A program made the position numbers and the translations under genes. A DNA stretch of 64,000 nt from Acidobacteriota bacterium (GTDB lineage Bacteria; Acidobacteriota; Terriglobia; Terriglobales; Acidobacteriaceae). A model generated the notes under the pieces. The model did not search any database and was not told the origin of the DNA. It saw only the letters and a list, made by a program, of their open reading frames with translations. The stretch covers positions 60,001 to 124,000 of the forward strand of contig JAJXWA010000003.1 in the NCBI GenBank assembly GCA_021781795.1. Direction: 5' to 3'. Positions 39,916-44,477 of this stretch are shown here, piece by piece (positions within the stretch are counted from its first letter, which is position 1; each line of letters opens with the position of its first letter).

Positions 39916-40158
39916 TGAACCGTAACCTTACTTTTATCTATTTTCACCCCTGCGCATCCGCGATGCAGCGGTTCTGATCACACAGCCGAGTGAGCGCAAT
40001 TGTACTGTGCTTTGCAATGGTCGGACTGCGCTGCTGCTATCCTTTCCTTAGCCTCTTTGGCATGGCATCGCTGGGTGGCCACCGGCTCCAGCGATAGCTC
40101 GTGCTCCCTCGCAATTGGGCTGCTGATCCTTTTTGTTGACACCGGAAGCAGGGGTACA

Positions 40159-42156
40159 ATGACTCCGCAATCAATTCAAGCTTCACGACCCGCCACGGCG
40201 CCCTCCGCGTTCGCCGTATGGGCGCTGCTGCTGACGATCTTTGCATCGGTGCAGCTTGCATCTCTCTTCTCTCCGCCGCTGCTGGATGACGTGGATGCAA
40301 GCCATGCACAGGCCGCGCAGCACATCGTCGAGAACGGTGACTGGGTCACGCTGAAGGTGGACGGAATCCGGTATCTTGAAAAGCCGCCGCTGCCTTACTG
40401 GATCGACGCCGTCTTCTACCGCGTGTTCGGTGAGAACGTCTTCTCTACACACTTGCAGAACGCGCTGGCCCTGCTGGGCTGCGCCTGGCTCGCGTGGCTA
40501 TGGGCCGGCCGCGCGTGGAGCCCCCGTGCAGGCTACTATGCAGCCCTCGGCATCCTCACCTCTATCGGCCCGTTTCTCTTCACGCGCTTCGCCATTCCAG
40601 AGGCGCTGCTGAGCTTTCTCTTCCTTTTCGCGCTCTACAGCTTTCTGACCGGCATGGAATCGAAGCGGCCGATCCGCTTCTATGGCATGTGGGCCGCGCT
40701 GGCGCTGGCCACGCTCACTAAGGGACTGATCGCCCCTGTCTTTTTTCTCGGAGCAGCCCTTCCCCTTCTTCTGCTCAGCGGACAGTGGCGACGTTGGCAG
40801 CAGTTTCGTCCGTTTTCAGGGCTGCTGCTCTATCTCGCCATTGCCGCGCCGTGGCATATCCTCGCCGGCTTCGCCAATCCAGATCAGGGCCATCCGGTCG
40901 GCAATCACCCCACTCCGGGCAACGTCCACGGCTTCTGGTACTTCTACTTCATCAACGAGCATGTTCTGCGCTTCCTGGGCGAGCGTTTCCCGCATGACTA
41001 TAACCGCCTGCCCTTTGTCGCTTATTGGCTGCTGCATCTGGTCTGGCTCTTTCCCTGGAGCCTGTTCCTGCCCGCCCTGCTCGTCATCGCGTGGAAGACG
41101 CGTGGAAGCTGGCTGCAGCATCTCCGCCGCGACGCCGGCCAGACCGTAGATTTCTACCTCGACAACGCCGCGCGCGAAGACGTGGCCACCTACGTCTACC
41201 GCCTCAAGTTCCGCGTCCGCACAGCATGGCTCCTCGGATTGTTCTCTGCCTTCACGCTGCTCTTCTTTTCCATCTCCACCAATCAGGAGTACTACACGTT
41301 TCCCGCGTGGCCGCCGCTGCTGATCCTTACGGCCGCGGTGTTGGCCGACATCGAAGAGGGCGATGAACGCAGAGGGGAGTCGGACGCTTCGACGGCGCTG
41401 TCCAGTTCATGGCTGACGTGGGCGCAGGCTGTCTTTGCAGTGGTCGGCATCCTCAGTGCTCTCGCTCTCGGCTGGGGCCTCTGGGAGTCGCGCCGTCTCC
41501 CTTTTGTACCCGACATCGGCACGCTGCTGGCCCATCGCGACGTGGGCGGCTACACGCTGTCGATGTCGCATCTCTTTGATCTCACCGGGCCTTCGTTTGC
41601 CGCTCTTCGCCTTCCCGCTGCGCTGGCCGCAGGCACGCTGCTCATCGGTCCGGCCGTCGGATGGCTCCTGCGCGTGCGGCGCAGGAACATCGCCGCCACT
41701 GTCAGCGTAGCCGTGACCGCTGCGATCTTCCTCATTGCGGCCCACATCGCCTTCGCACGCTTTGAGCCTATGCTGAGTTCCAAACAGCTCGCCGACACAA
41801 TCCTGCGCAACGGTTCTTCGTCGGACTCGTTCATCATCTTCGGCGACCAGTCGGATGCCTCGTCGGTTGTCTTCTACACGCACGACTTTTTGCGCAGGCC
41901 GGCGTATATCGTTGTCGAGCCGTGTTCACCGCATGGTGCAGGTTCGTCGCTGTTGTGGGGATCGTGCTATCCCGACGCGCCAAAGATCTTCCTCAGCGAA
42001 GACCAACTCGTGGCGATGTGGGGCAAAGGCGAGCGCAAATGGCTCTTCGCGCAGGACGCCAATCAGAGCAAGGCAGAGCAGTTGCTGGCAGGTCACCTCT
42101 ATCCGGTGCAATCCATCGCTGACAAGGCGCTCTGGACCGACAGGCCGCTGCATTAG
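40159..42156 (+). CDS. ArnT-like glycosyltransferase family 39 membrane protein
   Basis: 'PPLLDDVDASHAQAAQHIVENGDWVTLKVDGIRYLEKPPLPYWIDAVFYRVFGEN'; multiple TMs. Start moved to ATG 40159. Confidence 0.9.
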   Translation: MTPQSIQASRPATAPSAFAVWALLLTIFASVQLASLFSPPLLDDVDASHAQAAQHIVENGDWVTLKVDGIRYLEKPPLPYWIDAVFYRVFGENVFSTHLQNALALLGCAWLAWLWAGRAWSPRAGYYAALGILTSIGPFLFTRFAIPEALLSFLFLFALYSFLTGMESKRPIRFYGMWAALALATLTKGLIAPVFFLGAALPLLLLSGQWRRWQQFRPFSGLLLYLAIAAPWHILAGFANPDQGHPVGNHPTPGNVHGFWYFYFINEHVLRFLGERFPHDYNRLPFVAYWLLHLVWLFPWSLFLPALLVIAWKTRGSWLQHLRRDAGQTVDFYLDNAAREDVATYVYRLKFRVRTAWLLGLFSAFTLLFFSISTNQEYYTFPAWPPLLILTAAVLADIEEGDERRGESDASTALSSSWLTWAQAVFAVVGILSALALGWGLWESRRLPFVPDIGTLLAHRDVGGYTLSMSHLFDLTGPSFAALRLPAALAAGTLLIGPAVGWLLRVRRRNIAATVSVAVTAAIFLIAAHIAFARFEPMLSSKQLADTILRNGSSSDSFIIFGDQSDASSVVFYTHDFLRRPAYIVVEPCSPHGAGSSLLWGSCYPDAPKIFLSEDQLVAMWGKGERKWLFAQDANQSKAEQLLAGHLYPVQSIADKALWTDRPLH

Positions 42157-42157
42157 C

Positions 42158-43134
42158 CTAACGGTCTCCGTAGAGATCTCTCGCATAGGTGACGAATCCA
42201 CGGCCCAGCCGATGGTATCTCCCAACCAATAACTCTCGCGAGGTGGCTGCCACTCTGGCCGGCAACCCGAGCTTCCTAGTGCGGTTGCGGCGCTCGACAA
42301 ACTCCATCTTTTCGCAAATCAGCCTCTCGGAGTACTCGAAATTCGGCACAAGCTCAGGGCGCGATCGAAGCCGCTCCAGAATCGCTCGTCACGAACGAGC
42401 CTCATCCCCGCCCCTCGCTGCAAGCCCCGCTGCCGTTGCAGCCATCGACTGCATCGCTCCGCCCATCGTCTGGCTGGAATGGGTTCGATACAGTGTCAGC
42501 GGCTCTGAGATATAGCCAACAGATACCACAGACGCCGCAAGCAGATACACCCACCAGTCATGAATGCAAATGTCCGAAAATGGGAGAATCAGAGGGAAAA
42601 GGCTCCTGCGAAATGCAAGGCCGTGCCCAGCGAGGATTCGGTAGCGAACAATCAGTTCTAGCTGATTCTTCGGAAACCGCATCACAGCTTCGTACAGCCT
42701 CCTGGGATAGCGCACACTCTGCTCAAGCGTGTAGCCCTTGTGGCAAAGCTGTTCGTCGACGATGAAGCTGTTGCTCGACGCAGCCAGGACCTGTTGGTTC
42801 GCCTCAAATAGTCCTGCCAGGTGTTCGATGTGCGCCGGAAGCCACACGTCGTCGTGATCAGAAAACAAAATAATCTCGTGCGAGCAATGCCGAACTGCAT
42901 TCTCGAAATTACCCGCAATCCCTGGTGTTCCCTGGTTTTTGATGTACTGGACACAAAAGGGAGCCCGCCGGGCGAAGGCCTCCACAATCGCATCGGTATC
43001 GTCCGATGAATGGTCGTCGCTGATGACAACCTCATCGGGAAACCGGGTCTGATTCCGGTAGCTCTCCAACTGCTCTGAGAGATACCGCCCCCCTGATAGG
43101 TCGCAAGAGCGATGCTGGTCCGAAGAGCGCTCAT
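42158..43134 (-). pseudogene. Family-2 glycosyltransferase disrupted by a frameshift at a G6 tract and an in-frame TGA
   Basis: N-terminus 'MSALRTSIALATYQGG' in one frame, 'RYLSEQLESYRNQTRFPDEVVISDDHSSDDT' in the next; stop at 42389-42391 followed in the same frame by 'RAILERLRSRPELVPNFEYSERL...RYHRLGRGFVTYARDLYGDR*'. Confidence 0.8.
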
Positions 43135-43298
43135 CCCCTTCCTTTCAAAGGCAGCGCACGCAACTGATCTTCTCGTCATAACAAGACACCGTTGACCATG
43201 CAAGTGAAGCTGGCTCAGCCGCAGGCCCCTCGCACGCTAAAAGGGTCTGGACCTTGTGGTGCATTCCGTGCGCGATTGCGTTCGTTCGGAATGCGGTT

Positions 43299-44477
43299 TC
43301 ATCTGGCTGCCCGCATCTTGCCGCCGGGGAGCAAATCAAAGACCCGTCCGCGCCAAAGAATCCTGCTGGACCCATAACTTGCCGCCCAGAAACAAAAGCC
43401 CATCAGATCGCGAATTGGATAGAGCACGAGCAGCCCAAACCAGCTCCGGTCCTGCACAACCAGCCGACCCACCGCGATCGACAGAGCCAGCCGCGTCGCC
43501 ACGCTCCAGCCCAGCATAGCCAGGCCCCAGCCTGCGTGCCCCATCACCGCTGCAGCCACCAGACCCAGTAGCCCGAAAGGCAGGCTGAAGGTCAGCGCCG
43601 TACCAAAGTGCCCTTTGGGCCGGGAAAAACGTGTGGATTTCATCCATCGAACCTGGTGTTGAATCGAGGCGACAAAGCTCGAATTGATCACCATGTGGTC
43701 GATCGCGTGATGACTCAAAACGACCTTCTGGCCCAACTTCCACGTCTCGTTCCCCAGCACAAAATCATCGGCGCAATAATCTGCCGTGACCTTGAATCCC
43801 CCCATGGCTCGAATTGCCTGGCGCCTGAAGGCCATCGTCGGGCCCAGCGTGAACTGCATCCCCTCCATCATCCGCGCCACGAGCACGCCTGCCGTCATCT
43901 CGACCGACATGCCCACCGCCTCCAGCCGCGCCCAAAGGCCGCCCTCGGCCGCCAAGCCGCGATACGGACACGTCAATCCACCCACGCGTTCATCGGCAAA
44001 CGGCAGCGCGACGGCGCGCAGATAATCCGGCGTGACGCGCACATCGCTGTCGCTGATCACCAGAATGTCGTATCTGGCCGCAGCCTCCATCCTCTCCATC
44101 GAAATAGCCTTGTCGTTGATGTAGTCCGGCTGCCCTCCGGTGAAAAGAAACTGCACCGGAATCCGCGGATAACGCGCGGCCACCGCGCGCGCAACCTCTA
44201 ACCCTGGGTCTTCCGCAGAGCGCGCGCAAAAGAGAATCTCGTACTCGGGATAATCCTGTTCAAAGAAGCTCGCCAGATAGGAGGCAAGTCCCGGCTCCGA
44301 TCCGTGGAGAGGCTTCAGAAGAGAGAGTGGAGGGGTGAATCCGGGACGGTCCGCAAGCAGCCAATTGACCTTGCGGCGCTCGCGCAGATAACCGGGCACG
44401 GACCACAGTGTCATGCCCGTGAAGACCGTGGATGTAATCAGGCCGAAGGCTGCCAGCGCGAAAAGAACGTACGTCAT
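43299..44477 (-). CDS. HpnI-like / ceramide glucosyltransferase-like (GT21) glycosyltransferase
   Basis: 'PPLSLLKPLHGSEPGLASYLASFFEQDYPEYEILFC', 'ISDSDVRVTPDYL', 'HQVRWMKSTRFSRP'. Confidence 0.88.
   Translation of the reverse strand: MTYVLFALAAFGLITSTVFTGMTLWSVPGYLRERRKVNWLLADRPGFTPPLSLLKPLHGSEPGLASYLASFFEQDYPEYEILFCARSAEDPGLEVARAVAARYPRIPVQFLFTGGQPDYINDKAISMERMEAAARYDILVISDSDVRVTPDYLRAVALPFADERVGGLTCPYRGLAAEGGLWARLEAVGMSVEMTAGVLVARMMEGMQFTLGPTMAFRRQAIRAMGGFKVTADYCADDFVLGNETWKLGQKVVLSHHAIDHMVINSSFVASIQHQVRWMKSTRFSRPKGHFGTALTFSLPFGLLGLVAAAVMGHAGWGLAMLGWSVATRLALSIAVGRLVVQDRSWFGLLVLYPIRDLMGFCFWAASYGSSRILWRGRVFDLLPGGKMRAAR

Follow-up and report, generated by a model that had tools for sequence, protein, structure and literature searches.

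The gene described here lies on the minus strand of the window (the whole stretch of 64,000 nucleotides that was analysed, from an Acidobacteriota bacterium, probably of soil type) and is flanked by two conserved, convergent genes. On one side is a PMT_2 / ArnT-like glycosyltransferase (40000–42156, plus strand; PF13231) and on the other an hpnI-like glycosyltransferase (43299–44477, minus strand; TIGR03472, E 1e-89, just under the cutoff); each has orthologs in 71 of the 79 genus genomes. The segment between them (42157–43298) is an insertion, absent from sister genomes, in which the flanking genes are 25–135 bp apart. It contains a broken family-2 glycosyltransferase (GT2) gene, which reads in the sequence from an ATG at 43134, preceded by AAAGGAAGGGG, to a terminal TAG at 42160–42158.

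The 5′ end of the gene (43090–43134), consisting of the ATG and first 15 codons, encodes SIALATYQG, the opening strand of the GT-A fold; homologs have SxALxTYNG here. The frame is then lost at six consecutive G (43093–43088, in the context CAG GGG GGC); at this position, the longest G run among 26 homologous ORFs is four. Translation from ATG 43134 departs from GT2 sequence after 15–16 residues and runs out of frame to a first stop near 42682. The catalytic core (42392–43087) is in a different frame from the start codon. It matches PF00535 above the Pfam cutoff (E 9.5e-22; 78.1 bits vs 23.3), a match from which the fold is clear, and the core motifs SDHDDVW, GLAFRRS, IHDWW, and YRTHSSQ are intact. 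The second lesion is an in-frame TGA (42389–42391), a substitution-type stop rather than a homopolymer change, through which the homologs read. Beyond it, 76 further codons and the TAG follow in this frame (42158–42388); this orphaned C-terminal tail carries RELLVGRYHRLGRGFVTYARDLYG. No third lesion is visible in the gene. The sequence-only reading had located both interruptions and the change to a GT2 frame correctly; it was also right that the frame continues past the TGA into a plausible GT2 C-terminus, although the 77 codons it gave do not agree with our count. Its remark that the ORF track begins at 43069 and misses both ends holds as well, as the homologs span these ends, and the codon at 43069 is TTG. 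The EpsE, TuaG, and PglI models match weakly (about 40 bits vs NCBIfam cutoffs of 400–500); as these nearest curated models are so far below their cutoffs, a specific function (sugar, acceptor) cannot be assigned.

Homologs were searched with the read-through protein, 325 residues with an X at each break. Uninterrupted homologs are present in seven genomes of the same phylum (G127, G399, G415, G383, G492, G304, and G186). They are about 325 amino acids long, share 31–39% identity with the query, and align from residue 3–5 to residue 313–324 without a stop. When three of them were aligned with the window gene, the sequence was continuous over both lesion sites; thus, both lesions interrupt one ancestral gene. 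The tail motif REL.xGRYHR..RGF...KD is conserved in the homologs and lies wholly after the TGA in the window gene. This shared motif, together with the homology over nearly the whole query, excludes chance as the explanation of the frames. Chance similarity of the tail was considered separately and rejected: the resemblance is weak with single distant proteins and clear with closer homologs. The sequence-only reading had allowed for orthologs with natural ends at 43069 and 42389; the intact homologs instead span both sites, although shorter homologs, about 255–268 amino acids in total, do exist. The best match by identity (51% over the first 120 residues) is a homolog in G349, which ends in SELLRGRYQRNSRGFLAFARDLYG where the window gene has RELLVGRYHRLGRGFVTYARDLYG. 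It has a frameshift of its own near codon 124, roughly one third into the gene, and no G run lies at that lesion. As the closest homolog has been frameshifted independently, this type of GT2 gene decays repeatedly. The G349 homolog (L174, 3762–5905) adjoins a broken IS5-like transposase and IS66-like remnants, named by eye.

The GT2 gene had no match in a DNA search of the 79 other genus genomes, where matches were confined to the PMT_2 end of the query; a plasmid search returned distant homologs only (<60% identity). The codon score of the gene is 0.12–0.13 per codon compared with 0.25–0.60 in its neighbours, and the GC content dips at this point; both fit a foreign origin. The gene stands alone, outside any polysaccharide cluster. 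Neither a remnant of hpnI or PMT_2 within the insert nor a repeat of the insert elsewhere in the window was found.

The junction itself was surveyed in 43 genomes that have both genes convergent on one contig, with gaps counted by eye from coordinate tables. The hpnI–PMT_2 gap is 25–135 bp in 24 genomes, 205 bp in one, and 0.5–2.8 kb in about 18, the window genome included. The inserts, which were named by eye from sequence and not by profile search, are of unrelated kinds: GT87-like membrane glycosyltransferases (G083, G092, and G100), an acyltransferase 3 (G103 and G012), a cupin with a TonB-like protein (G079), a GNAT-like protein (G002), and a Clp-like ATPase (four genomes). As different inserts occupy the same junction in relatives, the window GT2 can be regarded as cargo of a permissive site. 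In G031, the insert (L113, 184–1233) encodes a protein that looks Abi_2-like (abortive infection) by eye. No integrase was seen at the junction inserts (window 42157–43298; L099, L100, L106, and L111–L124). Two genomes repeat part of the hpnI 3′ end after the cargo, with unchanged orientation (L099, 6369–6482; L120, 1074–1197), as if the cargo had arrived with the hpnI end of a donor, by one-sided homology or an att-like duplication.

We consider it probable that a horizontally acquired GT2 has decayed here recently, leaving a young pseudogene. The reading frame is interrupted relative to intact homologs, as in a pseudogene, and decay is supported by two independent lesions, by the foreign, genus-unique character of the gene, and by the broken state of its closest homolog. 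Synteny shows that a GT2 of a kind scattered through the phylum entered the permissive convergent PMT_2/hpnI junction, where it may have brought no lasting benefit. A frameshift in the G run near the start and a nonsense change that cuts off the C-terminal tail, both observed as interruptions, would then have disabled it. Internal starts would miss the first strand of the nucleotide-sugar-binding fold, and a functional enzyme would not be expected. Loss of the tail at the TGA alone need not kill the enzyme, to judge from the short homologs. The gene resembles other pseudogenes of acquired accessory genes in being genus-unique, with low codon adaptation, a frameshift plus a nonsense change, and intact neighbours; nothing notable sets it apart from them, except that a short G run close to the start happens to be the site of the frameshift. 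With the GT2 (PF00535) enzymes of exopolysaccharide and O-antigen clusters it shares the catalytic-core motifs, but it is far under the NCBIfam cutoffs and has no polysaccharide cluster around it. The sequence-only reading had left the choice between a decaying gene and a switchable locus, with ordinary pseudogenisation as the simpler case; the two independent lesions bear out the latter preference.

With intact-looking core motifs and no sign of a third lesion, either the decay is young or one lesion could be an assembly error. The first alternative to be weighed is that the organism has an intact gene and that one of the lesions, or both, arose as an assembly or consensus error. The genome is a draft (89 contigs, 87.7% complete), and errors typically arise in G runs, but the second lesion is of a different type. 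To obtain a lesion baseline, 36 window genes were compared with seven stretches of relatives. In 33 of them (39,954 nt), a single alignment follows the ortholog colinearly and shows no lesion; the other three are low in coverage or identity (two partial matches and one 52% identical), and none of the 36 was flagged as split between frames. If errors are assumed to be evenly spread, the background is at most 0.075 lesions per kb (95% upper bound), and on the same assumption, two or more lesions in the GT2 gene at this upper-bound rate have p ~0.003. Error at both lesions is therefore unlikely, a single error at one of them could have occurred, and on balance we regard an intact gene in the organism as unlikely, though the likeliest of the alternatives.

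A decaying gene also accounts for the locus better than slipped-strand phase variation, in which the G tract would turn the glycosyltransferase on and off. Like the contingency glycosyltransferase genes of Campylobacter, Neisseria, and Helicobacter, the gene has its G tract early in the reading frame and is off-frame in the sampled copy, and the sequence-only reading had called this the classic layout. The evidence does not support a switch, however. The contingency tracts of Campylobacter are 8–13 bases long (PMC3025981), whereas the window tract has six; it is not conserved either, as the homologous ORFs (26, from 23 loci) have only two to four consecutive G at this site. The idea that long G tracts abound across the genome was rejected, as its 3.4 Mb contain only 17 distinct G/C tracts of at least eight bases. 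The window has fewer such tracts than a first-order Markov model predicts, and its one C8 falls within an intact 826-amino-acid kinase gene. Furthermore, the TGA at 42389 is in frame in either phase and is uncorrectable by the tract, so that no tract length gives a full-length protein, although one with the catalytic core could be made. This second lesion makes a switch less likely rather than strictly impossible, as the TGA alone spares the catalytic domain and short-tailed homologs exist. We judge phase variation of the gene very unlikely; with a short, unconserved tract and a TGA that persists, only the decay half of the earlier decay-or-switch proposal survives.

One observation in favour of a switch comes from a GT87-type gene, not related to the GT2, that occupies this junction in G083 (L111, 1008–1177) and is frameshifted at eight G (L111, 1087–1094). 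Its relatives in L117 and L124 are intact without a tract, and those in G092 and G100 are without the tract. That the junction is a variable cargo site whose glycosyltransferases are switched by G-run slippage (six G in the GT2, eight G in the GT87-type gene) seems to us exceedingly improbable; if true, it would give this lineage a contingency locus that one would not expect there.

Two further readings would keep a functional product and are scarcely credible beside a pseudogene. Programmed −1 frameshifting or transcript slippage at G_GGG_GGC with UGA readthrough would give the full-length protein, and the heptamer is in the correct register with a C following the UGA, but two recoding events would be required in a single gene, the downstream structure is barely better than shuffles (z −1.26), the heptamer is missing from the homologs, so that a conserved slippery site with a stimulatory structure is not seen, and most frameshifted genes that occur as singletons reflect indels or errors (PMC3711429). 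A shortened functional protein from TTG 43069 to TGA 42389 is just as remote: the 226-amino-acid ORF is open and homologs with short tails exist, but it lacks the first β-strand, SIALATYQG, found in the intact homologs, and a ribosome-binding site before the TTG is not evident.

The decayed GT2 carries little weight in itself; it shows cleanly how a foreign gene can decay once inserted, and it serves as a caution that an ORF track can conceal both ends of a broken gene. The more useful by-product of the analysis is the hpnI/PMT_2 junction, a neutral landing site that holds different genes in about two fifths of the readable genomes.
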